A DNA stretch of 21,844 bases from a virus. The position numbers were made by a program, and so were the translations under genes. This document shows positions 1,481 to 21,409 of this stretch, piece after piece. Positions within the stretch are counted from its first letter, which is position 1, and every line of letters starts with the position of its first letter. The notes beneath the pieces are model-generated. The model ran no database searches and was not told the origin of the DNA. It saw nothing but the letters and a program-made list of their open reading frames with translations. The stretch covers positions 1 to 21,844 of the IMG/VR virus record IMGVR_UViG_3300033552_000060; one strand, written 5' to 3'.

Positions 1481-4400
1481 TTAAACTGCCACAAAAGTTC
1501 CTGAAACGGTGACGCTTTTAATTTGTGTATCTGGATTTAAGAACATTAACTGTGCGTATAAATCACCGCTATCAATCCTTGACGCTAGTATAACCCAGCT
1601 TATATTGTCATTTGAGTATTCATAGTAAACCGTTCCACTCGTTCTTCTTAACCTAATCCATTGGTTTGCTTGTCTTACAATTGTTGGCGGTGCCACATCC
1701 GCATTTATTGATGATAAATGAATCATATTATCTTGAAAATAATAAAACATATAGTTATGATACACCCAATTGTCCGCTCCTGTAAGTAAATTGTCATGTC
1801 TTAATGCAAAAATAACCCTATCTAATTGTGCTAATGTCAATGTGCTAACAGAACATTTAAACCATCCATCAATACCAGATGCTAATTTCCTATTCATACT
1901 TATAATTCGAGAACCATTTGCGCTTGAACTTAAAAAGTCACCCAACACAACATCATTTGTTGCTGAAAAATTAACAATTGAAGAATAATCACTACTAATA
2001 AATGGTGCCACGCCTACGGCTAAAATTCTATAATAAAAAGTTTGATTCAAAGTTAATCCACTATGTTTATAGGTGTTGCCGTTTACACCTATTGAAGCAA
2101 GATTGATAAAACTTATGCCATCAGTGGAATACTGTAAAGTATAACCGTTATTATTTAATGATTGCGTCCACGTAAAATTAATTTCTGTTGATGTTGTTCC
2201 GGTCGATATTAAATTTGGTACTATCAATTTTAAAACATTTATGATGCTTTTTAATTTATCATAAATAACACCATGGCCGGCCGCGTTTGGATGCCCGGCA
2301 TAACCTTGATATGTTGCGTTCCAAGTACTCGCTGACGAATCACCGCCAGTGAACAAAGTTTGCGATGCATCAATATATTGTGAATAAGTTGATTTTATCC
2401 ATGCATTAAAAGTTCCGTTTGTTGGTGGAATTGTTAATGGATAAACGGATATTCCTTTCGCTGTTATTGCATTTATTAATGTTTGGTAATTAGCTTGATT
2501 CGTGCCGTTTGTTCCAAGCATTAAAAAAACCGATTTTGGATTTCTTAATCCAATTTCATTTAATGTGGTTTGCATATCTAAAATTTGTGCCCCTCCAGAT
2601 GCGTGTAAGGAAATTTTTTGTGTATTTCGGTTTTTAAATAAATCAAAAAACCGTGATGAACTGCTTTTTCTAATTACGGAGGAATCTTCCATAGAAAAAC
2701 CTTGCGTAATACTATCACCTACAAATAAATAGTCAATATTTTTTTGCTCATTGGATTTAACTGTAAATGAATTAATTTCCCATTCACCATCTAACACTTG
2801 AAACCCATATTGAAACATTGTTGGCTGACAATTTGCCGTTTCATTGTAATTGCTTACAAAAGATAAATCCGATGATTCTCCGGTACTTATATTTTTAACC
2901 GTGAAAATTATTTTATTTTTTATCCTTGTCATTTTAAAGGAAACCAAATCATTTTTTTCTATAAGTACAATATTTGTCGATGTTATTCTATCAGTCCATG
3001 TAGTTCCATCACTTGTCGTTGAAGCAATAGCCATTCCGGTATTTGTTCTTCTGCAACTCCACAAAAATTTATAAGACGTCTGTAACGAATCTAGAAAAGG
3101 CGCAATTCCCAATCCAAGTGTTTTACAAACACCAACAATTTCCAATTCAAAATTATCTAATGTGGACGTTCCATAATTAGAAAAAACAAATTTATCCGCT
3201 TGAAACACTCCAACGCTTTTTGATACGTTTAATATATTATTAAGAATTGAATATGTTGTGTTTGGTGCCGTGATTGTTAATTCTGTTGATGTTCTAATTC
3301 CTGGAATAATTGTTCCTAATACATTATCATTTGCGTTTAAAATATTAACATTAATAATGGGTGCCAATGGGTTTGTGCTGTCAATTGTCACATTCGTACC
3401 CGCAACTAACTTGTTTTGTTTTCCAGAAACTAAATCATTAATTTGTTTTTGCAATTTGCCAAAAGCTACTAAAACACTATCTGTAGAAACAATTGCACCT
3501 CCTGTAACAAGAGAAAGTCCACTTACTAAAGTAGCCAAAACCCGTGCTGTCGTAAAATACAAATTACTCGTACCTTCAGGTAATTGATCCGTGTTCGTGG
3601 CTCCACTTCCTGTTACCGCATTTTTTACCCAAATAATTTCTTCAGCATCCCAGTTGTAATTCACAACATCAGCAGCGCCTACTTCATTTACTTGTGCATA
3701 ATCGCCAATATTAGCTATTGGGTGTGCTGAAATTAAAGCGGCTTGGGTAAGATAAACTCCTTTAAATCTATTGTTGTAATCAGAACTATTTAGTTTTAAA
3801 GCTAGAGCAGCGGCTTGTGCGGTACTTACTGGTTTATTTAGATCACTTGTGTTGTCTACGTTTCCAAGTCCTATTCTTGTTTTGTCGTAAACAATCCCTA
3901 CATAATCCAAAAAGCCAGAATTACCAGCATCAAAGCGCCACTTGAAGTGAACGATTTCATTGTTTTTTATCGATAACGTTTCAGCGTTAGGGAAGGAGTA
4001 TTTAAAGTTTCCTGTTCCAGAAAGATGCAATACTTGTAAAATACCGCCATTTACATTTTTTAAATAATGATCCTTACCATCGTAAATAAATTTTTTATTT
4101 GCAGTAGAAACTGAAATAGATCCTAAAGAAGTTGCTGCAACCACCAGGAAATTTGTTGCTTGATCCGTTATAGAAAATTCCGCTTTATATCCTGAACCTG
4201 ATAACTTCTTGAAGGTAGCTTCTGATTTGGCGATGTACGCGTCACCAGCCACCGGAGCCGTTGGCTGTTCAATAACGCCATCAGTAACAACAATCAAAGT
4301 AGCTTGCACCGTATCGTTAGGAACGGGTTGTGTTACAGGATTACTTACGCTTTCAGTTCCTGCAATACGAGTAAACGTGTTTGACGTGTTTAAAACAATC

Positions 4401-4681
4401 AAATCAATACGTTGCATTCCTGCGGCGGCAAAAGGAATATTAATCACTACAGCCGCCGGATTTGTATACGGAACTCCATTAATAAGCCATTGCCAACCGA
4501 TATTCATCGTTAAACTTTGACCCACCAAAGAAAAACCAGTTTCCGAAACTAATTTATCGACATTATCGATTTTAGCTTCGAGATAATCGAAATTAGCGTT
4601 AATCATTTGGCCCGCACTTTTTGCGCCAGTACCCGTTTTATCGCCGGTTGTTGTTCCTAAAAAAAGCTTTTGTAGTGCCAT
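1481..4681 (-). CDS. Tail fibre / receptor-binding protein with SGNH-hydrolase and FN3 domains
   Basis: This 1066-aa protein is probably trimeric and sits at the tail tip. The N-terminus (~1-45, TTTGDKTGTGAKSAGQMINANF) resembles virion-attachment regions of other tail fibres, and NLYFTTARV near residue 375 is a motif often seen in phage fibres. A beta-rich, lectin-like region (~490-645) precedes an SGNH/GDSL hydrolase domain (~650-815). That domain has block I GDSITQ (Ser657), block II Gly near 696, block III LGTN (Asn725) and block V HPN (His797). An FN3-like domain (~818-905, WTQSLNNNGYTLQYSTDG) and a C-terminal concanavalin-like module (~907-1066) follow. The enzyme domain probably deacylates a surface glycan during adsorption. 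The usual Asp of block V DxxH is Tyr794 here. The start overlaps the upstream stop by one base (TAATG). Confidence 0.8.
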   Translation of the reverse strand: MALQKLFLGTTTGDKTGTGAKSAGQMINANFDYLEAKIDNVDKLVSETGFSLVGQSLTMNIGWQWLINGVPYTNPAAVVINIPFAAAGMQRIDLIVLNTSNTFTRIAGTESVSNPVTQPVPNDTVQATLIVVTDGVIEQPTAPVAGDAYIAKSEATFKKLSGSGYKAEFSITDQATNFLVVAATSLGSISVSTANKKFIYDGKDHYLKNVNGGILQVLHLSGTGNFKYSFPNAETLSIKNNEIVHFKWRFDAGNSGFLDYVGIVYDKTRIGLGNVDNTSDLNKPVSTAQAAALALKLNSSDYNNRFKGVYLTQAALISAHPIANIGDYAQVNEVGAADVVNYNWDAEEIIWVKNAVTGSGATNTDQLPEGTSNLYFTTARVLATLVSGLSLVTGGAIVSTDSVLVAFGKLQKQINDLVSGKQNKLVAGTNVTIDSTNPLAPIINVNILNANDNVLGTIIPGIRTSTELTITAPNTTYSILNNILNVSKSVGVFQADKFVFSNYGTSTLDNFELEIVGVCKTLGLGIAPFLDSLQTSYKFLWSCRRTNTGMAIASTTSDGTTWTDRITSTNIVLIEKNDLVSFKMTRIKNKIIFTVKNISTGESSDLSFVSNYNETANCQPTMFQYGFQVLDGEWEINSFTVKSNEQKNIDYLFVGDSITQGFSMEDSSVIRKSSSSRFFDLFKNRNTQKISLHASGGAQILDMQTTLNEIGLRNPKSVFLMLGTNGTNQANYQTLINAITAKGISVYPLTIPPTNGTFNAWIKSTYSQYIDASQTLFTGGDSSASTWNATYQGYAGHPNAAGHGVIYDKLKSIINVLKLIVPNLISTGTTSTEINFTWTQSLNNNGYTLQYSTDGISFINLASIGVNGNTYKHSGLTLNQTFYYRILAVGVAPFISSDYSSIVNFSATNDVVLGDFLSSSANGSRIISMNRKLASGIDGWFKCSVSTLTLAQLDRVIFALRHDNLLTGADNWVYHNYMFYYFQDNMIHLSSINADVAPPTIVRQANQWIRLRRTSGTVYYEYSNDNISWVILASRIDSGDLYAQLMFLNPDTQIKSVTVSGTFVAV

Positions 4682-10105: not shown

Positions 10106-10126
10106 TGTAGTACTTTTTGAAGTGGA

Positions 10127-10183
10127 GTAAAAGTACTTTTGAGGTTTATTTTAAAAGGGTGAAAGTTTTGCTTTTAAATTTTA
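10127..10183 (-). promoter_or_regulatory. Putative late promoter P2 (tail/lysis unit), shared two-part motif
   Basis: Read on the minus strand, a 31-nt element (10183-10153, containing GCAAAACTTTCACCC) is followed after exactly 17 nt by TACTTTTAC (10135-10127), and the tape-measure ATG starts 21 nt beyond it. The same two elements with the same 17-nt spacing occur at 17069-17013 before the portal gene. TACTTTTA fits the Bacteroidota -7 pattern TAnnTTTG in seven of eight positions, but there is no TTG at -33. The conserved upstream block may therefore replace it as an activator site. The promoter role is inferred. Confidence 0.6.
10153..10183 (-). repeat. 31-bp direct repeat, copy 2
   Basis: This stretch is identical over 31 bases to 17039-17069, in the same orientation. 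On the plus strand it begins AAAAGGGTGAAAG and ends TTTTAAATTTTA. It starts within 7 nt of the A-tract of a terminator hairpin, as the other copy does. Confidence 0.95.
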
Positions 10184-10189
10184 CATCGT

Positions 10190-10222
10190 AAAAAAAGCCA
10201 CTAAATTGCTTTAGTGGCTTTA
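10190..10222 (-). terminator. Intrinsic terminator after the secreted-protein gene
   Basis: A perfect 12-bp inverted repeat (AAAGCCACTAAA at 10195-10206 and TTTAGTGGCTTT at 10211-10222) with a TTGC loop lies 22 nt beyond the stop of the 122-aa gene. On the minus strand the stem runs into a U-tract encoded by 10196-10190. This should end the head/neck transcript. It may also work weakly in the other direction. Confidence 0.85.
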
Positions 10223-10244
10223 TATCTATTTTTTTAGTTTTAAT

Positions 10245-10613
10245 CTAGCAATTGCTCCTGCAATTATAAGTCACTTTATCATCTAGTAATTTATAATCTT
10301 TATTCAATTTTTCTTTGTAAGGCGTTTTAATAAATTGAATACTTTTATAAGTCCATCCTACATCATCCAGCGCATTACTTAATATAGGTTCTTTATTATA
10401 ATTACATAATTTAGTTTTAGGAACGGCGGTCCTATTACTGGCAATATCATAAAATACCGCTTTATCACTTGCTACATTTACAACTGTTACCGGAAAAGTA
10501 AATTCCGTGTAAACGATTGTTTTTTTCTTTTGTTCCAGATGGGTTGTAGTTCCCAGTACCGTAAAGCTAATCATCCCGATTAGCAAAATTAAGAACGATT
10601 TAATTAAGCGCAT
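10245..10613 (-). CDS. Small secreted/periplasmic protein of unknown function (probable moron)
   Basis: This 122-aa protein starts with a clear Sec signal peptide: MRLIKS, then a hydrophobic core LILLIGMISFTVLG at ~8-21, with likely cleavage near TTT. The mature part is small, Lys/Tyr-rich and beta-like, and ends with a CRSNC pair of cysteines that could form a disulfide. The start overlaps the end of the T chaperone frame by 14 nt, and a strong terminator follows the stop. An exported protein is out of place among cytoplasmic tail-assembly genes, so it may change the infected cell surface, for example by superinfection exclusion. That role is inference only. I recognise no family. Confidence 0.65.
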   Translation of the reverse strand: MRLIKSFLILLIGMISFTVLGTTTHLEQKKKTIVYTEFTFPVTVVNVASDKAVFYDIASNRTAVPKTKLCNYNKEPILSNALDDVGWTYKSIQFIKTPYKEKLNKDYKLLDDKVTYNCRSNC

Positions 10614-10962
10614 TGTTTTTTAATTTTTCATCCTGCAGGCGATAAAATTCTTCTACTTTTTCAATTTCTTCCAGAAGTATTGCATTGTCTTCTTCGGTGA
10701 ATTCTTCCTGCAATTCCGTTTCCCAGGGAAACTCTAGTATTTGGTTTTCTTTTAGGTTTTTACTGTTAGGCGCTAAACTGGCCCACATTATTTTACGGGC
10801 AATCATCCAGCGTTCCCTGCTTAAATTATCTTCCCGTTTGCGGTAGCCATTCACGGTGTTTGCAAATTCACGCGGGGTAAGCCTGTAGAAATAATCTAAA
10901 TTTAAATTCAAGTGCCCTAAAGCCAGTTCTTCGAGATCATCCCAGGAAGGATCTAAAGGTTC
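10600..10962 (-). CDS. Tail assembly chaperone T domain, made as -1 frameshift extension of G
   Basis: This frame is open from the slippery heptamer to TAA at 10602-10600, adding 120 residues to the G protein. The T part includes DYFYRLTPREFANTVNGYRK (from ~20 residues in) and ARKIMWAS, typical of phage tail chaperone C-termini in which an aromatic 'LTPREF' helix is followed by a basic helix. It ends in an acidic, helical tail. The frame has no good ATG of its own: the only nearby start is TTG at 10911, well inside a continuing frame. Frameshifting is therefore the better explanation. As in lambda G/GT, the fusion should bind tape measure through G and recruit tail tube subunits through T. 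Confidence 0.8.
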   Translation of the reverse strand, partial: EPLDPSWDDLEELALGHLNLNLDYFYRLTPREFANTVNGYRKREDNLSRERWMIARKIMWASLAPNSKNLKENQILEFPWETELQEEFTEEDNAILLEEIEKVEEFYRLQDEKLKNNALN

Positions 10963-11351
10963 TTTTTTGCTCCGCTCCTCAGAGCTTTCAACTTTCCCGG
11001 AGCCGTAACTTCTTTAGGCTGTTCCATGGATTTAATAAATTCCTGCATTACAATTGAAATGATGGAAAGAAGATTTTGTGTTTCTTCCAGATACATGTCC
11101 TCTAATTCCGTTTTTGTCAGTTGCTCTTTGTTTTCATCATTGCATTCTACTGATGCAATAATCAGATCGTTTATAACCGAAAGTTGTTTGAAAGTAACAT
11201 CTTCAGTCATTCCAGATAACGTTGTTAATACGTGTTGCTGAACCGTCATAAGCGATGGCAAATCCCATTTTTCGCCTAATGCTGCAAAAACCCCTAAGCC
11301 AAATCGCAGCTTAAAGGTTTTGTTTTTAATTTTTACAATAATTTCACTCAT
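10953..11351 (-). CDS. Tail assembly chaperone G
   Basis: This 132-aa protein lies between the major tail protein and the tape measure, the standard place for the G chaperone. The N-terminus (MSEIIVKIKNKTFKLRFGLGVFAALGEKW) has the short beta-hairpin plus 'FGLGV..ALGE' pattern common in Bacteroidota tail chaperones, followed by helices. The last codons read GCA AAA AAG AAC CTT TAG. The A-AAA-AAG heptamer lets a fraction of ribosomes slip to -1 and continue into the T frame, giving a 250-aa G-T protein. Unshifted G ends two residues after the slip site. Its start ATG is 1 nt after the stop of the major tail protein. Confidence 0.82.
   Translation of the reverse strand: MSEIIVKIKNKTFKLRFGLGVFAALGEKWDLPSLMTVQQHVLTTLSGMTEDVTFKQLSVINDLIIASVECNDENKEQLTKTELEDMYLEETQNLLSIISIVMQEFIKSMEQPKEVTAPGKLKALRSGAKKNL
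10962..10968 (-). promoter_or_regulatory. -1 ribosomal slippery site A-AAA-AAG
   Basis: The heptamer is in the correct phase (X XXY YYZ: GCA AAA AAG). A short inverted repeat AGATC/GATCT (10954-10950 and 10938-10934) begins 7 nt downstream and could act as a weak stimulator. Slippage gives K-K-E-P-L-D-P and joins the open T frame without any stop. Confidence 0.85.
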
Positions 11352-11352
11352 C

Positions 11353-11772
11353 TTACAGCGCTAATGTTTTAGTAAGATTTCCGTTTCCTTTGAAAGAGAA
11401 AGATCCTGTTACTGAATTACCATTTTCGGCAGTAATATCAGAACTTTCAACATACACTTTTCCGGAAAGGATAAAGTTTCCTGTAGCGCCATCCGTAAAC
11501 GTAATATCAATTTCAGTACCTGCCAGTTGTAAAGTGACAATATCCATAAAATCCAATTGCGTTGATGCAGCCGGCTTATTAGCCACTAAAGATTCTGCAG
11601 ATATATTCCACGCGTAATTTGATGGTGTTGATACCGTTCCTTGCGTATCTTTTGTAGCAATTTCTTCTAATTTTGTCGAAATCGACAACTTACAAGACAT
11701 TGCGTGGTAAAGCGCTTTTCCATTGTATGAAAAACGCACATTTTTTCCTTTGTAAATTTGACCTGCTGCCAT
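11353..11772 (-). CDS. Major tail (tube) protein, TP901-1 type
   Basis: This 139-aa protein should polymerise around the tape measure into the tail tube. The sequence is beta-rich. It opens with AAGQIYKGKNVRFSYNGKALYHAMSCKLSIS and EEIATKDTQG, matching the TP901-1/phi13 major tail protein pattern in which a 'g.di.l.v.g..ia.at..sls...e..e.s.KDsg' start is followed by a W residue (WNISAESL). The C-terminal half (SGKVYVESSDITAENGNSVTGSFSFKGNG) is also typical. It lies between the tail completion protein and the G chaperone, with 1-5 nt gaps. No extra Ig-like domain is present, so this is the minimal tube subunit. Confidence 0.82.
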   Translation of the reverse strand: MAAGQIYKGKNVRFSYNGKALYHAMSCKLSISTKLEEIATKDTQGTVSTPSNYAWNISAESLVANKPAASTQLDFMDIVTLQLAGTEIDITFTDGATGNFILSGKVYVESSDITAENGNSVTGSFSFKGNGNLTKTLAL

Positions 11773-11777
11773 AATTT

Positions 11778-12125
11778 CTAATTTGTATTTAGATTAATAA
11801 TTCCAACGAATGAAAATCCTTCTTCGATAAAATCGACGGTTGCACTTTGCCATTCGTAATTTTCGTTTGCTTCAATAATTAATTTCATTGCATCGGTAAA
11901 CGTGACACATTTTGCATATTCATTTGGACCAAACCAAAAATAGAGTTGCACCGTTGCGGCGGTTCCATCTTTACTCAGTGCCGTTTGCTCATTGATGCGA
12001 TAGGTTGTAAAAGGAAAATCAGTTTTCTCCGGTGCCACAATAGGAAATATTTTAATTCCCATTTTATTTGTAAAATCGCTATGCGTGCTCAGAAATAAAA
12101 CTAAGGCTTCAGATATCTTTAACAT
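11778..12125 (-). CDS. Tail completion / terminator protein (DUF3168-like)
   Basis: This 115-aa protein lies directly before the major tail protein. It has the DUF3168-like layout: an N-terminal helix (ALVLFLSTHSDFTNKMG), then 'IFPIVAPEKTDFPFTTYRI' (family 'v.p...p....fPyi.y') and a beta strand with 'VQLYFWFG'. A helix with 'ALKLIIEA'-like spacing and a final strand pair complete it. Such proteins cap the head-proximal end of the tail tube and stop its growth. The match is by pattern and position; overall sequence similarity in this family is low. Confidence 0.65.
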   Translation of the reverse strand: MLKISEALVLFLSTHSDFTNKMGIKIFPIVAPEKTDFPFTTYRINEQTALSKDGTAATVQLYFWFGPNEYAKCVTFTDAMKLIIEANENYEWQSATVDFIEEGFSFVGIINLNTN

Positions 12126-12127
12126 AA

Positions 12128-12637
12128 TTAACTTAGTTTATCGATTCTACGTTGAATGAACAATCCCATTTTGCGTTCCGCATCAGCGGTAACATTGTTT
12201 TTTGTGGATTCATAAGCTTGTGTAATAAAAGGATTTGCAGTCGTTCTGCGGATTGCAGCGCTCATGTTTGCTCCTTTTTTACGCTTTCTTTTAAAGCCTT
12301 TAGAATACACATTGATACCATCATGAACAAAATGGGCATACCAACCTTTATTCGCTCCTTTTACTCTGGCACCTACAAATATTGTAGGATTAGCACTTTT
12401 GCCTGTTATATTTCCTAATGATTTTTTAAGATTACCAGGATTAATAACCACACCTCTCGCAGTGTGCTTTTTTTTAGACACAGGCGCTAAAGCTCGCGCT
12501 GCATTTAGCGTAGGCTTTGCATTTTGACGTAGAATAAGAAGCATTTCTGTTTTCTTATCTTTATCAGAGGCCAGAAGTTCAATTTTTCGTTTTAATTCCT
12601 CAAAACCCGTTACGGTAATTCCTAAACTATCACTCAT
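12128..12637 (-). CDS. HK97 gp10-like neck/tail-completion protein
   Basis: This 169-aa basic protein opens with ITVTGFEELKRKIELLASDKD, the characteristic 'i.G.eel...l..l....' start of the HK97 gp10-like family. It continues with ALRQNAKPTLNAARALAPVSKK-type spacing (family 'a.......a..aP.....G.L..si'), here including NPGNLKKSLGNI. The middle WYAHFVHDGI matches 'yA.fvEfGt', and ANPFITQAYE matches 'a.PFl.pA'. It acts at the head-tail interface. It overlaps the upstream head-closure gene by 8 nt and ends 2 nt before the tail completion gene. Confidence 0.78.
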   Translation of the reverse strand: MSDSLGITVTGFEELKRKIELLASDKDKKTEMLLILRQNAKPTLNAARALAPVSKKKHTARGVVINPGNLKKSLGNITGKSANPTIFVGARVKGANKGWYAHFVHDGINVYSKGFKRKRKKGANMSAAIRRTTANPFITQAYESTKNNVTADAERKMGLFIQRRIDKLS

Positions 12638-12962
12638 AATCTCGAACTAAAAGTTTCAAAAATTGTTTTCGGCCCACCTCTATAGCATGATAAATATTAA
12701 ACTTTTGTCCGCTATCTATAACTAATAATTCTGAAGCGCGCATTCTGATCATAGGACTGTAGCGAATCATGTAAAAACGGTTTATGATATGCCGAACACT
12801 TCCTTCGACATCCTCACTACCGGACAAATCATTCATTTGGGCAAACGGCTCGGAAATCACATTATGAGTCACCTCCATCTCACCTGTAGAATTTCGCGTC
12901 TTTACAAGTTCTACTATTTGTATTTTACGGTCCAGTTGCCCTATGAATGGTGTTTTTTCCAT
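12630..12962 (-). CDS. Head closure / head-tail joining protein (SPP1 gp16-like)
   Basis: This 110-aa protein fits the Phage_H_T_join family: N-terminal LDRKIQIVELVKTRNSTGEM ('l..rI.i......d..G'), then PFAQMNDLSGSEDVEG ('.wa.v....g.E'), IRYSPMIRM ('ir...i....ri') and the final QKFNIYHAIEVGRKQFLKLLVRDYE ('..y.I..i.e.gr..fl.l....'). It should plug the connector after DNA packaging and receive the tail. It sits between the connector adaptor (2-nt gap) and the gp10-like gene (8-nt overlap), the usual order. Confidence 0.78.
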   Translation of the reverse strand: MEKTPFIGQLDRKIQIVELVKTRNSTGEMEVTHNVISEPFAQMNDLSGSEDVEGSVRHIINRFYMIRYSPMIRMRASELLVIDSGQKFNIYHAIEVGRKQFLKLLVRDYE

Positions 12963-12964
12963 GA

Positions 12965-13522
12965 TCAGTATTTTTTATACGGACGCAAAAGAGACATGGC
13001 AGCGGTTGCAATAACCTCAGTTCTATCCTCCCGACGCTCGTACATATCGCCTACTTGTAATAAAATAGCCTGTTGTATCGGTTTAGGCGTTTTTAAAATA
13101 GCATTACCTACTTTCACTATTACGATTACCGCATCAAACCTTTCGGCTGTTTTCGGAACGGATTCTTTGAAACGAAGGGCAAACACTTTTGACCCGATCG
13201 TTGTCAGACTATAATTAGCCGGTAGCATCGTTGTCAATACTTCACTTCCCAGTGGATAATATTGAACAGATGTTACGCTTTGTAACGGAAATGCTTCAAA
13301 AACCAATGGACTATCAAAAGCATTCATTTTTATAGTCATATCTTTTTCAAGAATATGGCCGCCAATAAAGTTTTCTGAAGCTTCAATTGCTGCGCCTATA
13401 TAACTTTTAATAAGATCATCTTCATCTATAAAAGAAGTTTCTAAACGAAGGTGTTTTTTAGCCTTAAGTAATGAGACTATTTCCATAGTATCATTTGGCT
13501 CGAATTTCACATCTGTTACCAT
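12965..13522 (-). CDS. Head-tail connector adaptor (HK97 gp6 / Phage_connect type)
   Basis: This 185-aa protein has the adaptor layout of gp6-like connectors: VSLLKAKKHLRLETSFIDEDDLIKSYIGAAIEASENFIG at ~16-54 ('v.lae.K.hLri....dD..l...i.aA...ie.y.g'), followed by a beta section with 'FEAFPLQSVTSVQYYP' ('l.g.Pv.sv.sv.y.d'). The C-terminal helix contains IQQAILLQVGDMYERRED ('ik.AillLva.lYenRe'). It forms a ring below the portal. It is the first of the neck genes after the capsid genes and is spaced by 6 nt from the upstream gene. Confidence 0.8.
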   Translation of the reverse strand: MVTDVKFEPNDTMEIVSLLKAKKHLRLETSFIDEDDLIKSYIGAAIEASENFIGGHILEKDMTIKMNAFDSPLVFEAFPLQSVTSVQYYPLGSEVLTTMLPANYSLTTIGSKVFALRFKESVPKTAERFDAVIVIVKVGNAILKTPKPIQQAILLQVGDMYERREDRTEVIATAAMSLLRPYKKY

Positions 13523-13528
13523 AGGTTT

Positions 13529-13873
13529 TTATTTTACAAATTCAGCATAGCCGGACTCTACTAATTCAGTTGCCTGCGCTTCATTAAATAAAGCTGTTTC
13601 GCCAACATTATACGCCAGGTTAAATTTGCCTGTTGGTGAAACTTTAAATTTCACTTTCAGTTTTTTCTCCTTGGTCACATCTTTTTTAGCAGTCTCTGCG
13701 GTTACATTTTCCAAAGCTGCTTTAGCATCTTCAAAATCTTTTACAGCTTGAGCACTTTGATCTTCCGTTGCATCTTCCGGAAGCGTATTTAAAACTTCGG
13801 ATGCATCATCGAAGTTTTTTTGTAATAAAGCGACCGCTTCGGCCGCTTTATTAGTTTTATCTGTATTTTTCAT
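13529..13873 (-). CDS. Capsid-associated accessory protein, unknown exact role
   Basis: This 114-aa protein follows the major capsid gene by 10 nt. The N-terminal ~75 residues are acidic, Ala/Glu-rich and probably helical or coiled-coil. The C-terminal ~40 residues (KLKVKFKVSPTGKFNLAYNVGETALF, then EAQATELVESGYAEFVK) form a small beta/helix unit seen in many phage proteins encoded next to capsid genes ('y..Gev..l....A..Li..g.Ae'). This suggests a capsid decoration, head-fibre or similar structural role. The position supports a virion link; the precise function is not visible from the sequence. Confidence 0.6.
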   Translation of the reverse strand: MKNTDKTNKAAEAVALLQKNFDDASEVLNTLPEDATEDQSAQAVKDFEDAKAALENVTAETAKKDVTKEKKLKVKFKVSPTGKFNLAYNVGETALFNEAQATELVESGYAEFVK

Positions 13874-13883
13874 CTTTTACGAA

Positions 13884-15167
13884 TTATACCGTGATTAATC
13901 CTTTAGCAACTGAGAATGCTTTTGGTTGTCTTAACATAACGTCAACAAATATGTTAACCGTAACCTCGATCAAACCTTCTTTTTTACGAGAAATTTCATC
14001 AACTGAAAGATCCATAAATCCCCATTGGTGAATATTCACTTGAGAAAAATCACCAAAAATCATTGCAGAAAGCGCCGTTCCAGTTCCTTTTACAAGATTA
14101 GAAGGAACGTGATTTGATACCCCAGAAGCATATCCATTTACAGTTCCATCAACTCCCATAATGTAGTTTAGATCTCCGGCTGCGTGTTTTGTTTTTTTCA
14201 ACTTCCCACGAGTTTTAGGATTTACCAAATAATTCATTTTGGCAGCACTTGCATTTGCCACAAAAACATTCGTTTCTGCATCCACCATCATATCCCAAGA
14301 AGGTAAAGAACCATTTACATCAGTAGCAACTACATTCACACTTGTATTATTCAAAATACCCAATGGTTGTCCTAAACCGTTTCCGTTCACAGTCGCTGCA
14401 TCTAATGCGTTTTCAATCGCTAAATTAATGTCGTTGACAGTATATCTCTCTAAATCAATAGAAGACTGCATCAAGTTTTGAAGCGAAATTGGCACGGTTA
14501 CCGACAAACGTTTTGGGATTGAATCCAAATACCCATACGCATTTGCAGTTTCTAGAGTGGTAGTTGTTTCACCTTCCCAAGAAGCTACAATACCACCTTC
14601 ATTTTTAGGGAAACGTAAATTACCCGTTAACCCGGTAATGTAGGCTGCACCCATTTTTTTCATTAACGGATCAGGACGTAAGAAGTCGATAGGCGACTGC
14701 AAATCAGTAGCTACCAATGCACCACCTTTAGTTCCTGTATCACCAGTCACGGATTGTTGCGCTCTATTCATAGGGATCGCTACACCTGAAAGCGTAATAC
14801 TACCCGGTTTCTCAGACGCCATAATACGATCATGTATTTCTTTTTCGATTCCTTCAAGCTTCCCATTCTGCATTTGCGAACGAATTGCACGGTGAATAGA
14901 GAAAACTGCTTTTGGCGTTTCTTCAGGTGTTTCTGGAACATCTAAACGTTGCGCACCAGTTCCGGCTAAAAGCAATTCGTTTCTCTCGAAACTTTCTGAA
15001 CGCTCAATACTTCTTGTAAGTACTTCGCTTTCAGTTTGCAAAGTGTCAAACGAAGCATTTTCTTCGTCATTCATTTCGCGTTTTAATTCTTTGGCATTTG
15101 CTACCAAAGCTTGTTGCGATTGCAGTTTTGCAGTACGCTCCAACTTTAATTCAGTTGATTTTTTCAT
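13884..15167 (-). CDS. Major capsid protein, HK97 fold (Phage_capsid family)
   Basis: This 427-aa protein is the shell-forming subunit. The first ~75 residues are a charged helical delta-like scaffold region (MKKSTELKLERTAKLQSQQAL, then DEENASFDTLQTESEVLTRSIERSE), expected to be removed by the prohead protease. The HK97-fold domain follows, with GGALVATDLQSPIDFLRPDPLMKKMGA ('G..lvP......i...l.....l...g'), WEGETTTTLETANAYG ('W..E......t...f') and ALDAATVNGNGLGQPLGILN ('..E.aif.G.G...P.Gil'). The C-terminal part contains GDFSQVNIHQWGFMDL and ends with a VEVTVNIFVDVMLRQPKAF-like strand. Upstream protease and portal genes complete the standard HK97 module. Confidence 0.92.
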   Translation of the reverse strand: MKKSTELKLERTAKLQSQQALVANAKELKREMNDEENASFDTLQTESEVLTRSIERSESFERNELLLAGTGAQRLDVPETPEETPKAVFSIHRAIRSQMQNGKLEGIEKEIHDRIMASEKPGSITLSGVAIPMNRAQQSVTGDTGTKGGALVATDLQSPIDFLRPDPLMKKMGAAYITGLTGNLRFPKNEGGIVASWEGETTTTLETANAYGYLDSIPKRLSVTVPISLQNLMQSSIDLERYTVNDINLAIENALDAATVNGNGLGQPLGILNNTSVNVVATDVNGSLPSWDMMVDAETNVFVANASAAKMNYLVNPKTRGKLKKTKHAAGDLNYIMGVDGTVNGYASGVSNHVPSNLVKGTGTALSAMIFGDFSQVNIHQWGFMDLSVDEISRKKEGLIEVTVNIFVDVMLRQPKAFSVAKGLITV

Positions 15168-15169
15168 TT

Positions 15170-15784
15170 TTAATATGAATTTTGATTAATACTTAATTGA
15201 GCCTCACGTACTGTGCGCTTTATTGTTTCCGGTTCTTTTACCGTTGTTTCTTTTTCTAATTTGGCTCGGATTTCTTCCATTGCGTCATGACTTCTTTTTA
15301 TTGCATCCGGATTAGATCCTAAAGCCACGATGGACCATTCTCTCAGTTCCTGATCATCAAAATAAATTACATTTGCATCTTCACCCAGCTTTTCGTCGCC
15401 CCAGTGTCCTTTTTTGATATTGGCACTTATTGAAGCCATACGAAGCGTTCCTGCCTGTATTTTTTTCCAAACTTTTTCAGCTAAAGGATTTACATCGGCC
15501 GCTTCAAAACGAACGATACCTATTAATTTATTATCTTCGATTCGAACCGCAGACGTTCCTAAAATCATATCCGGATCATCAGAGCCCGAACGATGTTGGT
15601 AACACACAATAGGATTCGCTTCATAGCGCTTTAGGTCCCAACCAGAAACCTTAAAAACAGTTTCATGAGAATCTACTGATTCAGTAGAAATCACAAATTC
15701 CGCTTCACGATTTTGTTTGTTTTCATCAGTAAGTGCGCGAACCACCGCTTCACGAACAACTACTTTATTTACTGCTATTTCCAT
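15170..15784 (-). CDS. Prohead maturation protease (HK97 family, peptidase S78)
   Basis: This 204-aa serine protease removes the capsid delta region inside the prohead. The family pattern is clear: EFVISTESVDSHETVF ('...ist...D..gdvv'), NPIVCYQHRS with His64 ('NPvvl..Hd'), GTLRMASIS with Ser118 ('G.l...Sigf'), and LREWSIVALGSNPDA with Glu149 ('l.EiSlV..pan..A'). These fit the expected His/Ser/acid catalytic set. The last ~35 residues are charged and variable. The start lies inside the end of the portal gene (20-nt overlap), and the stop is 2 nt before the capsid start. Confidence 0.9.
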   Translation of the reverse strand: MEIAVNKVVVREAVVRALTDENKQNREAEFVISTESVDSHETVFKVSGWDLKRYEANPIVCYQHRSGSDDPDMILGTSAVRIEDNKLIGIVRFEAADVNPLAEKVWKKIQAGTLRMASISANIKKGHWGDEKLGEDANVIYFDDQELREWSIVALGSNPDAIKRSHDAMEEIRAKLEKETTVKEPETIKRTVREAQLSINQNSY

Positions 15785-16994
15785 TTTGTTGTTCTTTTAT
15801 TAATTGATTTGCCATCGATAATGCCTGCATATTCACTGGCTGTAATATTTCACTCAATCCATCAATAGGATTCATATCTTCCAGGGCACGAACTTCATTT
15901 CTTGTGTAAATACCGGCATAAACCATTGCGGTGTAAAAACCTTGTTTCATTTGCAAATCACCACGCAGTAAGGCCGAAATATTAAATTTAGTATATACTG
16001 TCAATTGCTCTTTTTGAGAAAAAAGCTTTGTATCTAATTCCTGCTCGCGAGAAACCGCACGCGGCATAATCGAGTCCTGAACATGTTCAATTGATTGCTG
16101 GTAGATATTAGAATAATTACCGGAAGTAATGTCTTTTAGTTTATGCGGTGCGATATTTAACCAACGGCACACTTCAAGAACTCCTGCATTATTTGTTTCC
16201 AGGAATTGTGCTTCAGCAGGTGAAATAGAAATGGGTTTGTATTTCATACCAGCATCTAACATGGGTACTTTGAATTTACTGACTCCACTCATTTTAGATG
16301 AGAAACTATCTTCTATATATTTTTTGTTTGCTACATTCACTTCCAACTCACTTTCGATAACACCATACCCTAAACCACGATCTTTATATACTTCCTGCTG
16401 GTAAGTTTGGGAATCAATAGAGATACCTAGTTGCTTTGCAGCAAAAGTCACCACGCCAACGCCCACTAATCCATCAAAGGAGAATCCTTTGAAATGCAAC
16501 ATATCAGCCGCATCGATTTGACGGGATTTGTAGGTGTAATATAATTTGCGATCTTTTATAAAAACCTTCACATCATCATGGTCCAAGAAGTATAATTCCT
16601 CAATAAGTCCAGTAAAGGAATTGCGAACAATCTCAGCGTACCCATTTCCTTTTACGGTGCAGGAAATATCGATTATTTTCCAAAAATCGAAGGCTGTCAT
16701 TAGAGAATTTGGGCGTTGTGAGATTAACTTATTTACGGGATGTTCCGAGAATTTTATTCGGCTTTCACCGTCTTTTTTGAATACTATTTTTGGCAGCTTC
16801 GCCATATCATTTGACAATTGCTCAACAGCATTGTAAAAAGCAGATAAGGTAAATGCCGATTTTGAACTGGCCATTGTTCCTTTGCTTTCTACGCCAAACA
16901 TACTGCCAAAGCCAAATAACGAACTGGAAACTTGTGTTCCTGTTCCCGCGCTTCGGGTTGCAAACATTTGAGTAAAAGCCTGATCTAATGACAT
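15765..16994 (-). CDS. Portal protein (HK97 family)
   Basis: This 409-aa protein forms the dodecameric DNA gate of the head. Family features are FTLSAFYNAVEQLSNDMAKLP at ~46-66 ('..v..cv..iA..va.lp'), HPVNKLISQRPNSLMTAFDFW ('hpl..lL...PN...t...f'), and DAADMLHFKGFSFDGLVG ('..dilHi......g..G.S'). ICRWLNIAPHKL-type spacing and NYSNIYQQSIEHVQDSIMPRAVSREQELDTKL ('tysN.eq....f....l.P....ie..l...L') complete the match. The start ATG is preceded by the duplicated late promoter motif at 17069-17013, so it should open the head/neck transcript. The 3' end overlaps the protease gene by 20 nt. Confidence 0.9.
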   Translation of the reverse strand: MSLDQAFTQMFATRSAGTGTQVSSSLFGFGSMFGVESKGTMASSKSAFTLSAFYNAVEQLSNDMAKLPKIVFKKDGESRIKFSEHPVNKLISQRPNSLMTAFDFWKIIDISCTVKGNGYAEIVRNSFTGLIEELYFLDHDDVKVFIKDRKLYYTYKSRQIDAADMLHFKGFSFDGLVGVGVVTFAAKQLGISIDSQTYQQEVYKDRGLGYGVIESELEVNVANKKYIEDSFSSKMSGVSKFKVPMLDAGMKYKPISISPAEAQFLETNNAGVLEVCRWLNIAPHKLKDITSGNYSNIYQQSIEHVQDSIMPRAVSREQELDTKLFSQKEQLTVYTKFNISALLRGDLQMKQGFYTAMVYAGIYTRNEVRALEDMNPIDGLSEILQPVNMQALSMANQLIKEQQNGNSSK

Positions 16995-17012
16995 GGTTTG
17001 TTAATTTTCCAT

Positions 17013-17069
17013 GTAAAAGTAGATTGATGGATTTGTGTAAAAGGGTGAAAGTTTTGCTTTTAAATTTTA
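17013..17069 (-). promoter_or_regulatory. Putative late promoter P1 (head/neck unit), shared two-part motif
   Basis: On the minus strand the 31-nt element (17069-17039) is followed after exactly 17 nt by TACTTTTAC (17021-17013). The portal ATG starts 18 nt further on. The bases between and after the two elements differ from the copy at 10183-10127, so the elements themselves appear selected. It lies just past a terminator that closes the upstream small-gene cluster. Confidence 0.6.
17039..17069 (-). repeat. 31-bp direct repeat, copy 1
   Basis: This stretch is identical over 31 bases to 10153-10183, same orientation, about 6.9 kb apart. The identity ends abruptly on both sides. Confidence 0.95.
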
Positions 17070-17074
17070 AGCAT

Positions 17075-17104
17075 AAAAAAACCCGATTGTTAGATCGGGT
17101 TTTT
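17075..17104 (-). terminator. Intrinsic terminator after the zinc-ribbon gene
   Basis: An 11-bp perfect inverted repeat (17077-17087 and 17094-17104, core ACCCGAT/ATCGGGT) with a 6-nt loop lies immediately beyond the stop codon at 17106. On the minus strand the descending arm runs into six T residues (17080-17075). It should end the terminase/small-gene transcript before P1. Confidence 0.88.
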
Positions 17105-18197: not shown

Positions 18198-18446
18198 TTA
18201 TTTTTTTTGGTTGTGAAAAATTATTACTCTTTTAAAACTTTCAAAATCACTGTATCTATCCAGCCCAAATAAATCATTGTATTCTTTATTCAAAGCATTG
18301 AAAGCGGCTTTATTGCTTTTGTGATTTTTGCATTCGAGAAAATATTCTTTAAAGAAGCCATCCCGGGTAGCTAGCTTTTTCATTTTTTCGTTTTGTACTT
18401 TTAATTTTTCAATTTCGATTTGATTTGCAATTTCTAATGGGCTCAT
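18198..18446 (-). CDS. Small helical protein next to terminase, unknown function
   Basis: This 82-aa protein has a charged helical N-terminus (SPLEIANQIEIEKLKVQNEKMKKLA) and a C-terminal part, NKEYNDLFGLDRYSDFESFKRV. That 'FG..RYSdfeSF' signature is of a kind I associate with short Bacteroidota prophage proteins near terminase genes. No catalytic motif or cysteine pair is present. It is the first gene after terminase, separated by 77 nt, and is followed within 2 nt by the 57-aa membrane gene. A DNA-packaging accessory role is possible but unproven. Confidence 0.6.
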   Translation of the reverse strand: MSPLEIANQIEIEKLKVQNEKMKKLATRDGFFKEYFLECKNHKSNKAAFNALNKEYNDLFGLDRYSDFESFKRVIIFHNQKK

Positions 18447-18523: not shown

Positions 18524-20272
18524 TTATATATAAATATCATCCGGGTTCATTTCCTTACTGTATTTAGATTGTTCCTCTTTTGGCGAAAGCGAACCACCAA
18601 GTGCCATAATTGCTGCAATAATTCCATCGATACGCTTGCCGTTTGCGTGTGATTTTCCTTTTGATATTCGGATATTCTCGTTGTGATCTTCAATGGTGAC
18701 ACAACCGGAAAGCATCCATTCCATAACTGGGTTTCCATCGTGTTTTATTTTACCTTCGAAAACCATTTTCTCAAACATTTTAGTAGGATGCGAAAAATTA
18801 GAAATGGTTTGCGAGAAATCAGACACTTCATAACCCTGCTCCACCAGGTGATTGATTATTGAATTTGAGTTCCAACGGTCACGCTCAATTCTTTTTACCC
18901 CAAATTGATGGTAGTTTTTATAAATGTAATCTTCAATCACATCATAATCGACTACGTTTCCAGGTGTTGCATAGAGATAGCCAGCATCACGCCAATATCG
19001 ATATGGTACTTGGTCCTCTTTGGAACGCTTGTCAATTGTATCTTCCGGACAAAAAAGAAAGGGTTTTATGTAACGAATATTTTCTTCATCAGGCTCTGAT
19101 ATTAGTACAAATGCGGTAATATCAGTAGTTGTGGATAAATCTAATCCGGCATAAGAACCGAATTTTTTAAACTTAGCGATATCAACTTCGAGTTTTGGGA
19201 GCTTTTTATCTCTGCCAAAATTGATGTCGTTTTTTTTCCAGATATCGGAAGGAATCCAAACATTATCACCATCAACCCACATATTTAGCGATTTAGTCTT
19301 GAAATTTGGAATTTTCGACGGTTGGTTTTTAGCTTTTATGAATTCACGGCGCATGAAATCCATTAAAGTACTGTTGTACATTACGTTTGGATTTGCTTTC
19401 TCCCAGTTGTTTTCATCTTCCCAATCATCATCAGCGTCCATTTGATGGATCATAATAAGCGTATGATTGTCCACATTTAGACCTAAAAGAATGTCTTTAT
19501 ACGAATCTTCGGCAAGTTTACAGGCAGATTTTAAGTTGAATCCTGCGGTGGTGATAATGTACACCAACGGATTGTCCCGCGCTCCCATTGCAGACTCCAG
19601 AACCTCCCGAACGCTATCATCTTTGTGCGCATGGTATTCATCGACCAAGGCCAAAGAAGGATTTAGTCCATCGAGCGTTTTACTGTCACCACCAAGGAAA
19701 CGAAACACTCCGGAGGTGTGCGAAAAACGGATTTCACGCTGGGTATTGCGAAAACCCAACGTGCGCAGCAGCAGCGATTTTTCGACAAAGGCAAATGCTT
19801 GCTCCCAAAGTGTTTTGGCTTGTGCCTCTTTAGTGGCTCCTACATAAATTTCAGGACCTTCTTCGCCATCCAAAGCTTGGCAATATAAACCAAGTCCGGC
19901 AAGTTGTGTAGTTTTTCCGTTTTTACGCGCCACGGCTTCATAAATAAAATTGATTCTGCGAAGTTTTGTGGCTGCATTTACCCATGCAAAAATGTTATAA
20001 ATAGTAAATTGCTGGTATGGCGAAAGTTCGAACGGTGTTTTAGTTTTCGCCATTGGCCCCTTAGTATGCGTTAGGAATTTAGGGAAGAAGTTGATCGCAA
20101 ACATTCCTTGGTTATGGTCCAACACATAGCCATCCTGATCAGCGGTTTCTATCCAGTCAAAAAAACGTTGCGCCGCTAATTTTATCCATTGGCCCGTAAC
20201 TAATTCCCCATCCAGTACTTGCTGCGCATACTGGAATGGAATAGAAGATTTCATTTGTGATGTAATTTGCAT
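18524..20272 (-). CDS. terL: Terminase large subunit (Terminase_1 family)
   Basis: This 582-aa packaging motor couples ATP hydrolysis to DNA translocation and cuts the concatemer. The ATPase domain has a Walker A variant ARKNGKT at 115-121, Walker B LALVDEYH with Asp211/Glu212, and the TTAG coupling motif near 241-244. The nuclease domain begins YAGLDLSTTTDITA (Asp378, Asp384), with the C-terminal acidic motif at KRIDGIIAAIMALG. The length and order fit HK97-like terminases. ATG at 20272 is the chosen start; an in-frame ATG at 20254 is possible. No small terminase gene is directly upstream. Divergent from it is the XRE regulator, so the shared 114-bp gap may control both. Confidence 0.92.
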   Translation of the reverse strand: MQITSQMKSSIPFQYAQQVLDGELVTGQWIKLAAQRFFDWIETADQDGYVLDHNQGMFAINFFPKFLTHTKGPMAKTKTPFELSPYQQFTIYNIFAWVNAATKLRRINFIYEAVARKNGKTTQLAGLGLYCQALDGEEGPEIYVGATKEAQAKTLWEQAFAFVEKSLLLRTLGFRNTQREIRFSHTSGVFRFLGGDSKTLDGLNPSLALVDEYHAHKDDSVREVLESAMGARDNPLVYIITTAGFNLKSACKLAEDSYKDILLGLNVDNHTLIMIHQMDADDDWEDENNWEKANPNVMYNSTLMDFMRREFIKAKNQPSKIPNFKTKSLNMWVDGDNVWIPSDIWKKNDINFGRDKKLPKLEVDIAKFKKFGSYAGLDLSTTTDITAFVLISEPDEENIRYIKPFLFCPEDTIDKRSKEDQVPYRYWRDAGYLYATPGNVVDYDVIEDYIYKNYHQFGVKRIERDRWNSNSIINHLVEQGYEVSDFSQTISNFSHPTKMFEKMVFEGKIKHDGNPVMEWMLSGCVTIEDHNENIRISKGKSHANGKRIDGIIAAIMALGGSLSPKEEQSKYSKEMNPDDIYI

Positions 20273-20386: not shown

Positions 20387-20608
20387 GTGGTAGAAAAGAA
20401 CGAAATACAATTTATTAAATATGTTGGTAAAAAACTGAGAGAGAAACGATTGTCTAAAAATCTTTCTCAGGCGATATTGTCATACGACGCTAATATTCCT
20501 AAAAGCCAAATAGGACGCATTGAACGTGGCGAAATAAATACTACGATAGGCACTCTATTTAAAATTTGCAAAGCTTTAGACATTGATTTTAAGGACTTGA
20601 TTTCGTGA
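20387..20608 (+). CDS. XRE-family HTH transcriptional regulator
   Basis: This 73-aa protein is a single helix-turn-helix domain: FIKYVGKKLREKRLSKNLSQAILSYDANIPKSQIGRIERGEINTTIGTLFKICKALDI, with the classic 'lr..R...gls q..lA...gis.s.is.iErG...p.l.tl.kia.aL.i' pattern. It has no sensor or oligomerisation domain. It is the only plus-strand gene here. GTG at 20387 is the only usable start because an in-frame stop lies at 20369-20371 and no ATG occurs early in the frame. A good promoter lies upstream and palindromes flank the start. It may be the lysogeny regulator or control the late region. The stop is directly adjacent to the end of the integrase gene. Confidence 0.82.
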   Translation: MVEKNEIQFIKYVGKKLREKRLSKNLSQAILSYDANIPKSQIGRIERGEINTTIGTLFKICKALDIDFKDLIS

Positions 20609-21409
20609 TTATATAGCAAATGGAAGCTTTTTTAAGCTTTTACTTGATGTATGCGCATAAATAGCAGTTGTTTTTAATGAAGTTTGTCCTAGTAAATCGC
20701 CAATAAATTTTAAATCAATGCCTTTTTCAAACAATCCGGTTGCTACGCTATGTCTCAAAGTGTGCATGTGGTATTGTTTTCCTAGATATTTCTTAACGAT
20801 TTGGTTGCAGCTTCCATTAGAATATTTTAAACCAAACTGTCCATTAAATAAATATTCTTTTGGTAGATATTCCACGTAATACAGGCGAATTATTTCTCTA
20901 GTCGTGGGTGTTAGAGGAACTATTCGGTCTTTTTTACCTTTTGCACCAATAATTCTAATTTGCATAAGTGGTGTGCTAATATGTTCCAGCTTTAAATTTA
21001 ACACTTCAGAAACTCGTAATCCGACCGATGATGTCAAAGCAATGATCGCTTTGTGTTTTTTATTCTCGATTTTATCAATCATTCCTACCAACTCATCCAT
21101 ATCAATCACCAGCGGAATCTTCTTTTCTTTTTTTGCATACGTTATGTATTCAAATTTTCTGTTTTGCTTGATTGTCAGAATATAAAACTTCTTGATTGCG
21201 GAATGCATTGCATTTTGCGAATTGACTTCCTTAGCATTTAATAAATAATCCTTGATTTCATCTGCCGAAATATGTTTCGGACTGTCTTTTTCTTTGAAAT
21301 ATGCTAGGAATAACTTTATTTGGCTGCTGTAGTTCTTGATCGTTTCAATTGAGAAGCGAATAAATCTTAAATCTCTCTCATAGTCTTGGATGTACTTTGC
21401 GGAATTCAT
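20609..21409 (-). CDS. Tyrosine recombinase / phage integrase
   Basis: This 266-aa protein should catalyse site-specific integration and excision. The N-terminal SAM-like core-binding domain spans ~1-90. The catalytic domain contains GLRVSEVLNL (Arg132), GAKGKKDRIVPL (Lys157), HTLRHSVATGL (His216, Arg219) and the nucleophile motif TTAIYAHTS (Tyr251). The third box reads LLGQTS: Gln242 replaces the usual His or Trp, which may lower or alter activity. The stop codon abuts that of the convergent XRE gene with no base between. The size fits small XerC/D-like integrases of Flavobacteriia. It may serve this prophage, though no attachment site was seen. Confidence 0.85.
   Translation of the reverse strand: MNSAKYIQDYERDLRFIRFSIETIKNYSSQIKLFLAYFKEKDSPKHISADEIKDYLLNAKEVNSQNAMHSAIKKFYILTIKQNRKFEYITYAKKEKKIPLVIDMDELVGMIDKIENKKHKAIIALTSSVGLRVSEVLNLKLEHISTPLMQIRIIGAKGKKDRIVPLTPTTREIIRLYYVEYLPKEYLFNGQFGLKYSNGSCNQIVKKYLGKQYHMHTLRHSVATGLFEKGIDLKFIGDLLGQTSLKTTAIYAHTSSKSLKKLPFAI
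20624..20640. terminator. Possible convergent terminator hairpin inside the integrase 3' end
   Basis: AAGCTT-TTTT-AAGCTT followed by T residues could form a short hairpin just beyond the XRE stop, within the last codons of the integrase gene. The stem is short and AT-rich, so this is tentative. Confidence 0.3.

Follow-up and report, generated by a model that had tools for sequence, protein, structure and literature searches.

The window, that is, the whole stretch of DNA analysed here, is a linear virus record of 21.8 kb (21,844 nucleotides) in which all cassette coordinates lie on the minus strand. It contains two late units, headed by the portal gene and by the tape measure protein (TMP) gene, whose identities come from PHROGs, and a block headed by the large terminase gene (TerL) that also holds a small gene, c11a. 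The features are, from high to low coordinates:

18524..20272, minus strand: TerL, large terminase gene (phrog_9, E=9.5e-146), heading the block that holds c11a
18198..18446, minus strand: c11a, 82-aa candidate late activator, right after TerL, between TerL and portal
17077..17104, minus strand: terminator hairpin with T-tract before the putative portal promoter (terminator listing)
17038..17069, minus strand: 32-bp exact repeat, copy 1 (direct reading, repeat search)
17042..17060, minus strand: 19-bp dyad box, copy 1, AAAGCAAAACTTTCACCCT, centre 17051
17013..17021, minus strand: -7-like box TACTTTTAC of the putative portal promoter, predicted start near 17009 (position scale from PMC6847099)
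16991..17014, minus strand: inverted repeat ACATGG...CCATGT, left arm adjoining the -7 box, portal start codon covered by the right arm
15765..16994, minus strand: portal gene, ATG at 16994 (phrog_12, E=1.8e-91), heading late unit 1 (portal to 10245)
10194..10221 and on, minus strand: symmetrical terminator hairpin before the putative TMP promoter, AAAGCCACTAAAGCAATTTAGTGGCTTTTTTT (direct reading; listed on the opposite strand)
10152..10183, minus strand: 32-bp exact repeat, copy 2 (direct reading, repeat search)
10156..10174, minus strand: 19-bp dyad box, copy 2, centre 10165
10127..10135, minus strand: -7-like box TACTTTTAC of the putative TMP promoter, predicted start near 10123
10109..10137, minus strand: 9-bp inverted repeat AGTACTTTT...AAAAGTACT, most of the -7 box within its left arm, its right arm shortly before the TMP start codon
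7628..10105, minus strand: TMP gene, ATG at 10105 (phrog_1535, E=9.2e-40), heading late unit 2 (TMP to endolysin)

Three other genes were noted. The XRE-type regulator c29 (73 aa; 20387-20608, plus strand), also present in G008, G010, G013, G014, and G016, is divergent from the terminase and could be a controller of the TerL/c11a block. A tyrosine recombinase gene lies beside the terminase (20609-21409, minus strand); the contig ends shortly beyond and the early region is missing from the record. A 1066-aa tail protein (1481-4681, minus strand) has a segment that by eye resembles an SGNH-type hydrolase (GDSITQGFS).

A duplicated cassette in the window

Direct reading revealed a 32-bp exact repeat at 17069-17038 and 10183-10152, recovered independently as repeat family D1. 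Both cassettes, one standing before the head genes and the other before the tail genes, have the same order: terminator, 32-bp repeat, 16 unrelated nucleotides, TACTTTTAC and a gene start. The first-pass annotation had described an identical element of 31 bp followed by 17 unrelated nucleotides; the repeat and the unrelated spacer both hold, but their lengths are 32 bp and 16 nt. Its further observation that the same box then precedes the portal and TMP starts by 18-21 nt was recovered exactly, with TACTTTTAC at 17021-17013 and 10135-10127 and the ATGs 18 nt (portal) and 21 nt (TMP) downstream, and these two sites are the only exact matches of TACTTTTAC in the window. The strong terminators that it placed beside each copy correspond to hairpins with T-tracts just upstream of both repeats, and a TTG at -33, which it had reported missing, was indeed absent from both cassettes on direct reading. 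In 22 kb, an exact 32-bp repeat whose copies also agree in their downstream spacing is far beyond chance. The core of the repeat has to be corrected to a 19-bp dyad, imperfect in the window itself, and the -7 box shares bases with a second inverted repeat.

A phage-specific box shared by portal and TMP

The window repeat is phage-specific, and exact 24-mers of it therefore had no match in the genome_contigs and viral_contigs sets; the relatives were reached by protein-guided searches instead. The relatives are loci obtained by portal- and TMP-guided searches of viral contigs and Flavobacteriaceae genomes. Their upstream regions align gap-free and share one layout: a 19-nt box (-39 to -21, counted from the TA of the -7 element), an unrelated spacer of about 20 nt, TAnTTTTAC or a similar element, and the start codon. 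The cassette arrangement thus recurs with other sequences, the box reading GTTTGAAATTCAAAC, GTTACATAATGTAAC, ACGGATAATTTTTCCGT and so on; of the 31-mer cassette that was to be sought in related phages, the architecture is kept and the sequence, being phage-specific, is not.

In 17/18 records, the phage's own box (at most two mismatches, usually none) was found at both portal and TMP in two to three copies, and TA..TTT followed both copies at the same spacing, again in 17/18 records. No other close copy (at most two mismatches) was found in those records beyond the portal and TMP sites. The same phage-private site therefore stands before more than one late operon, which is the pattern of a late-promoter regulon. 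Among the 17 phages with both sites, box identity was 98% within phages vs 49% between them (permutation p<=1e-4), the corresponding values being 46% vs 36% for the spacer and 28% vs 31% far upstream. In the 4.7-Mb genome of Flavobacterium oncorhynchi, the exact 20-mer occurs only at two prophage sites. A terminator-like hairpin with a T-run precedes the box in 32/61 cases vs 1.9% of random positions. With a matched dyad and -7 box at fixed spacing in relatives, comparison of these sequences strongly supports the original proposal of a selected promoter cassette that splits the late genes in two.

Several variants of this layout were observed. A third box copy lies 180-190 nt before the TMP copy in G001 (22412) and G013 (8799). 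At L067:3575-3700, one TMP gene is preceded by two tandem box and -7 cassettes whose dyads differ (GTTGAATAATTCAAC and GTTACATAATGTAAC), as if they were the trace of a code change. Myroides-type phages carry TAAGTTTG as their -7 box, and the near-complete record checked among them (G005) has the portal copy only; upstream of portal in L021, L024, L027, L038, and L042, also of this type, a conserved second palindrome, ACCTTGTCAAGGT, lies between the box and the TAAGTTTG -7 element.

The dyad symmetry of the box was supported by an arm-swap comparison of 28 nonredundant boxes, in which arm complementarity at centre -30 was 0.68 for own arms vs 0.39 for swapped arms (z=8.7), the next best centre reaching z=1.7. 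Differences between the box copies of one phage concern the dyad centre, that is, the central base, in 5/10 cases (six phages). The dyad centre is located 30 nt before the -7 box. Since the -7 element has its T at -12 on the F. johnsoniae promoter scale (PMC6847099), the dyad centre would be near -42 relative to the predicted start.

A scan for the sigma-70 consensus carries no information in this phylum, in which housekeeping promoters have TTTG and TAnnTTTG elements (PMC6847099, PMC9723704). The sites described here resemble these promoters in having TA at -12/-11 followed by TTT at -8 to -6, but differ from them at -5, where the -7 box of main-type sites (TAnnTTT) has A instead of G in 49/55 cases, and in that the -33 element is replaced by the dyad. 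Myroides-type sites have G at -5.

The C-terminus of c11a varies with the box

Gene clustering of the near-complete relatives yielded six candidate regulators: c11a, c11b, c20, c21, c26, and c29. c11a is present in 32/42 records, and the ten records without it are contigs without a TerL match either. We found no usable match to c11a among curated Pfam and PHROG families, nor did it match a known HTH profile or a solved structure of note; the viral proteins that match its fold well are all uncharacterised or unnamed. Its AlphaFold2 model comprises four helices (3-25, 28-39, 45-60, and 68-81) with a mean pLDDT of 92.7. Because the fold search against the PDB gave no significant match, we infer DNA binding from the covariation and the helices only. 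Cellulophaga phage phi39:1 gp08 (AGO49123.1; L036:3916-4146) is a homologue of c11a; no duplicated promoter box was found there.

Box distance correlated with the distance between c11a C-termini (Mantel, r=0.56, 28 phages). With portal and c15 controlled for, the partial correlation was r=0.45 (p=0.0002, 28 phages) for the C-terminus vs r=-0.02 (p=0.57) for the N-terminus, which served as a null control; such Mantel tests remove shared ancestry only in part, and the box remains somewhat correlated with portal distance. c11b correlated with the box less than c11a on the same phages. Pairs of phages illustrate the same trend. The window and L019, whose boxes are different, share 50/63 residues outside the C-terminus and 8/19 inside it, while the window and G016, whose boxes are nearly the same, share 12/19 C-terminal residues. 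G005 and L027 form a natural swap, in which the spacer (20/20) and the downstream sequence (60/60) are identical and both dyad arms and the c11a C-terminus (8/16) differ.

The C-terminal segment was picked after its variation with the box had been seen, so that an independent set of phages matters. This set consisted of TerL-guided contigs and further genomes. Among new contigs that carry c11a and offer 7 kb of room or more, the duplicated box with its -7 element was present in 5/20, vs 0/20 on the control strand; the other 15/20, which carry distant c11a homologues, had no duplicated box by the criteria used. One of the five, L159, is not independent, since its box and c11a end are the same as in the F. 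oncorhynchi prophage. The further genomes contributed two identical copies (L240), two diverged copies (L241) and a portal copy (L239). In pairs of new with old phages, the C-terminus again tracked the box beyond the rest of c11a (partial 0.37, p=0.0002). For instance, L240 and L026 are alike at 18/19 box positions and 14/21 C-terminal residues vs 27/63 other c11a residues. L173 and L190 are exceptions, their nearest C-termini including no near relative by box. Looser pair searches also returned pairs located in coding regions (L244, L036), which we discounted as chance.

The match between this phage-encoded candidate and its site is one of covariation. The sites change in step with c11a, above all with its C-terminal helix, and c11a is therefore likely to be the late-gene switch; the phage-encoded late activator that the first-pass annotation thought might bind the 31-mer thus has a plausible candidate, one that covaries with the dyad.

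A candidate late-gene switch

We consider it likely that a Flavobacteriia siphophage uses the cassettes as its two late promoters, activated by c11a and combined with a start-hiding stem on read-through RNA. The terminator at each cassette would end upstream transcription. Each promoter would combine a host-type -7 element with a phage-specific 19-bp dyad at about -42, and would have no -33 element. About -42 is the position of class II activators, and a c11a dimer would bind the dyad and recruit the host RNA polymerase in a class-II-like manner. As this recruitment would take place at both dyads, expression of the TerL/c11a block would switch on the portal-to-TMP and TMP-to-lysis intervals together.

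The same promoters and the same regulator could also be read with the opposite sign, with c11a repressing the late operons, either outright or as timed feedback. Covariation shows recognition and not its sign, and the site overlaps the -33 region, where a bound protein could block the polymerase. However, a dyad near -42, a -7 box without the host G at -5 and the lack of a -33 element fit activation, and the c11a gene is directly upstream of the promoter, like the Ltr activators of Gram-positive phages (PMC13123087), so that we regard repression as unlikely.

It is somewhat less probable still that another phage protein binds the dyad, such as c21 (DnaA-C-like), c20 (Myb-like with HNH), c26 or the XRE protein c29, and that c11a hitch-hikes by linkage. 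The portal box and c11a are physically linked, and both c21 (r=0.46, n=8) and c26 (r=0.62, n=7) correlate with the box, but the c11a C-terminus reaches 0.54-0.78 on the same phages, which disfavours these two as binders, and c20 (r=-0.16) and c29 (r=0.06) were rejected. Moreover, the linked portal and c15 were controlled for in the partial tests, where the c11a N-terminus retained no signal. c20, found in the early regions of G001-G003, G006-G010, and G016, mostly combines a Myb-like, highly variable N-terminus with an HNH_3-like domain. Finally, the repeat might have no regulatory role and stem simply from a recent duplication or from gene conversion, or it might serve in packaging or recombination. 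A recent duplication would also give near-identical copies within a phage, but these readings are very improbable, given that the likeness is limited to about 19 bp with far flanks and spacer near background, that phages whose boxes are unrelated carry them at the same two positions, and that the -7 box always follows at fixed spacing.

Besides activation of both promoters by c11a, the model includes the inverted repeats of the start regions. On read-through RNA, the -7 region would pair with the start region in a stem that hides the start codon, and transcripts from the late promoters, without the left arm, would be translatable. The score of the -7/start-region inverted repeat was 7.2 vs 4.9 for shuffles that kept base composition only, and the phages' own left and right stem parts paired better than parts swapped between phages (p=0.0002 at portal and p=0.0002 at TMP), statistics that partly reflect the conserved -7 box. 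The predicted unpaired fraction of the start region was 0.62-0.65 in late-start RNA vs 0.42-0.44 in read-through RNA, although removal of an arm must lower pairing. An Rfam search of the window gave no match. These predictions suggest a T4-like block on read-through transcripts, which is the least certain part of the model. T4 uses its own late sigma system. In its I-TevI, soc and e genes, the late promoter leaves late transcripts without part of a start-hiding stem (PMC2988022), and the late-start RNA would here similarly lose part of the stem hiding the start region. Unlike in T4, the stem is a prediction and the hosts are without Shine-Dalgarno sequences (PMC6847099).

Two known systems offer possible functional parallels, and our tests do not support membership of c11a in either. 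Ltr/RinA proteins of staphylococcal phages (about 130 aa) act on one main late promoter through a site of several direct repeats (-107 to -42 in phi13) (PMC13123087). As proposed for c11a, a small phage protein is encoded directly upstream of its late promoter, with a site upstream of the start, but c11a has about 82 aa and would use one dyad at about -42, two promoters and a Bacteroidota -7 element; no kinship was found in comparisons with curated Pfam and PHROG families and solved structures. The C protein of phage Mu acts on four late promoters in a sigma-70 host (PMC4461284). It shares with the model a dimeric activator (as proposed here), several late promoters with non-consensus elements and a site overlapping the promoter, but differs in promoter number and host, and no sequence relation was found.

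In the literature searched, which left many subscription journals outside its coverage, we found no paper on a late activator of Bacteroidota phages, and late-gene switching in Bacteroidota phages of this type appears undescribed there. We lean slightly towards the broader view that c11a founds an unnamed late-activator family across Flavobacteriia phages, unrelated to known DNA-binding families, in which C-terminal helix and operators would co-diverge into private late codes and the start-hiding hairpin would be a second, translational lock. The analysis yields a candidate regulator of about 82 aa, operators from dozens of phages and naturally occurring specificity variants, and both the protein-DNA recognition code and the late switch become directly testable, including in a sequenced Flavobacterium lysogen. 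The private late codes suggested here would stop co-resident prophages from switching each other on.
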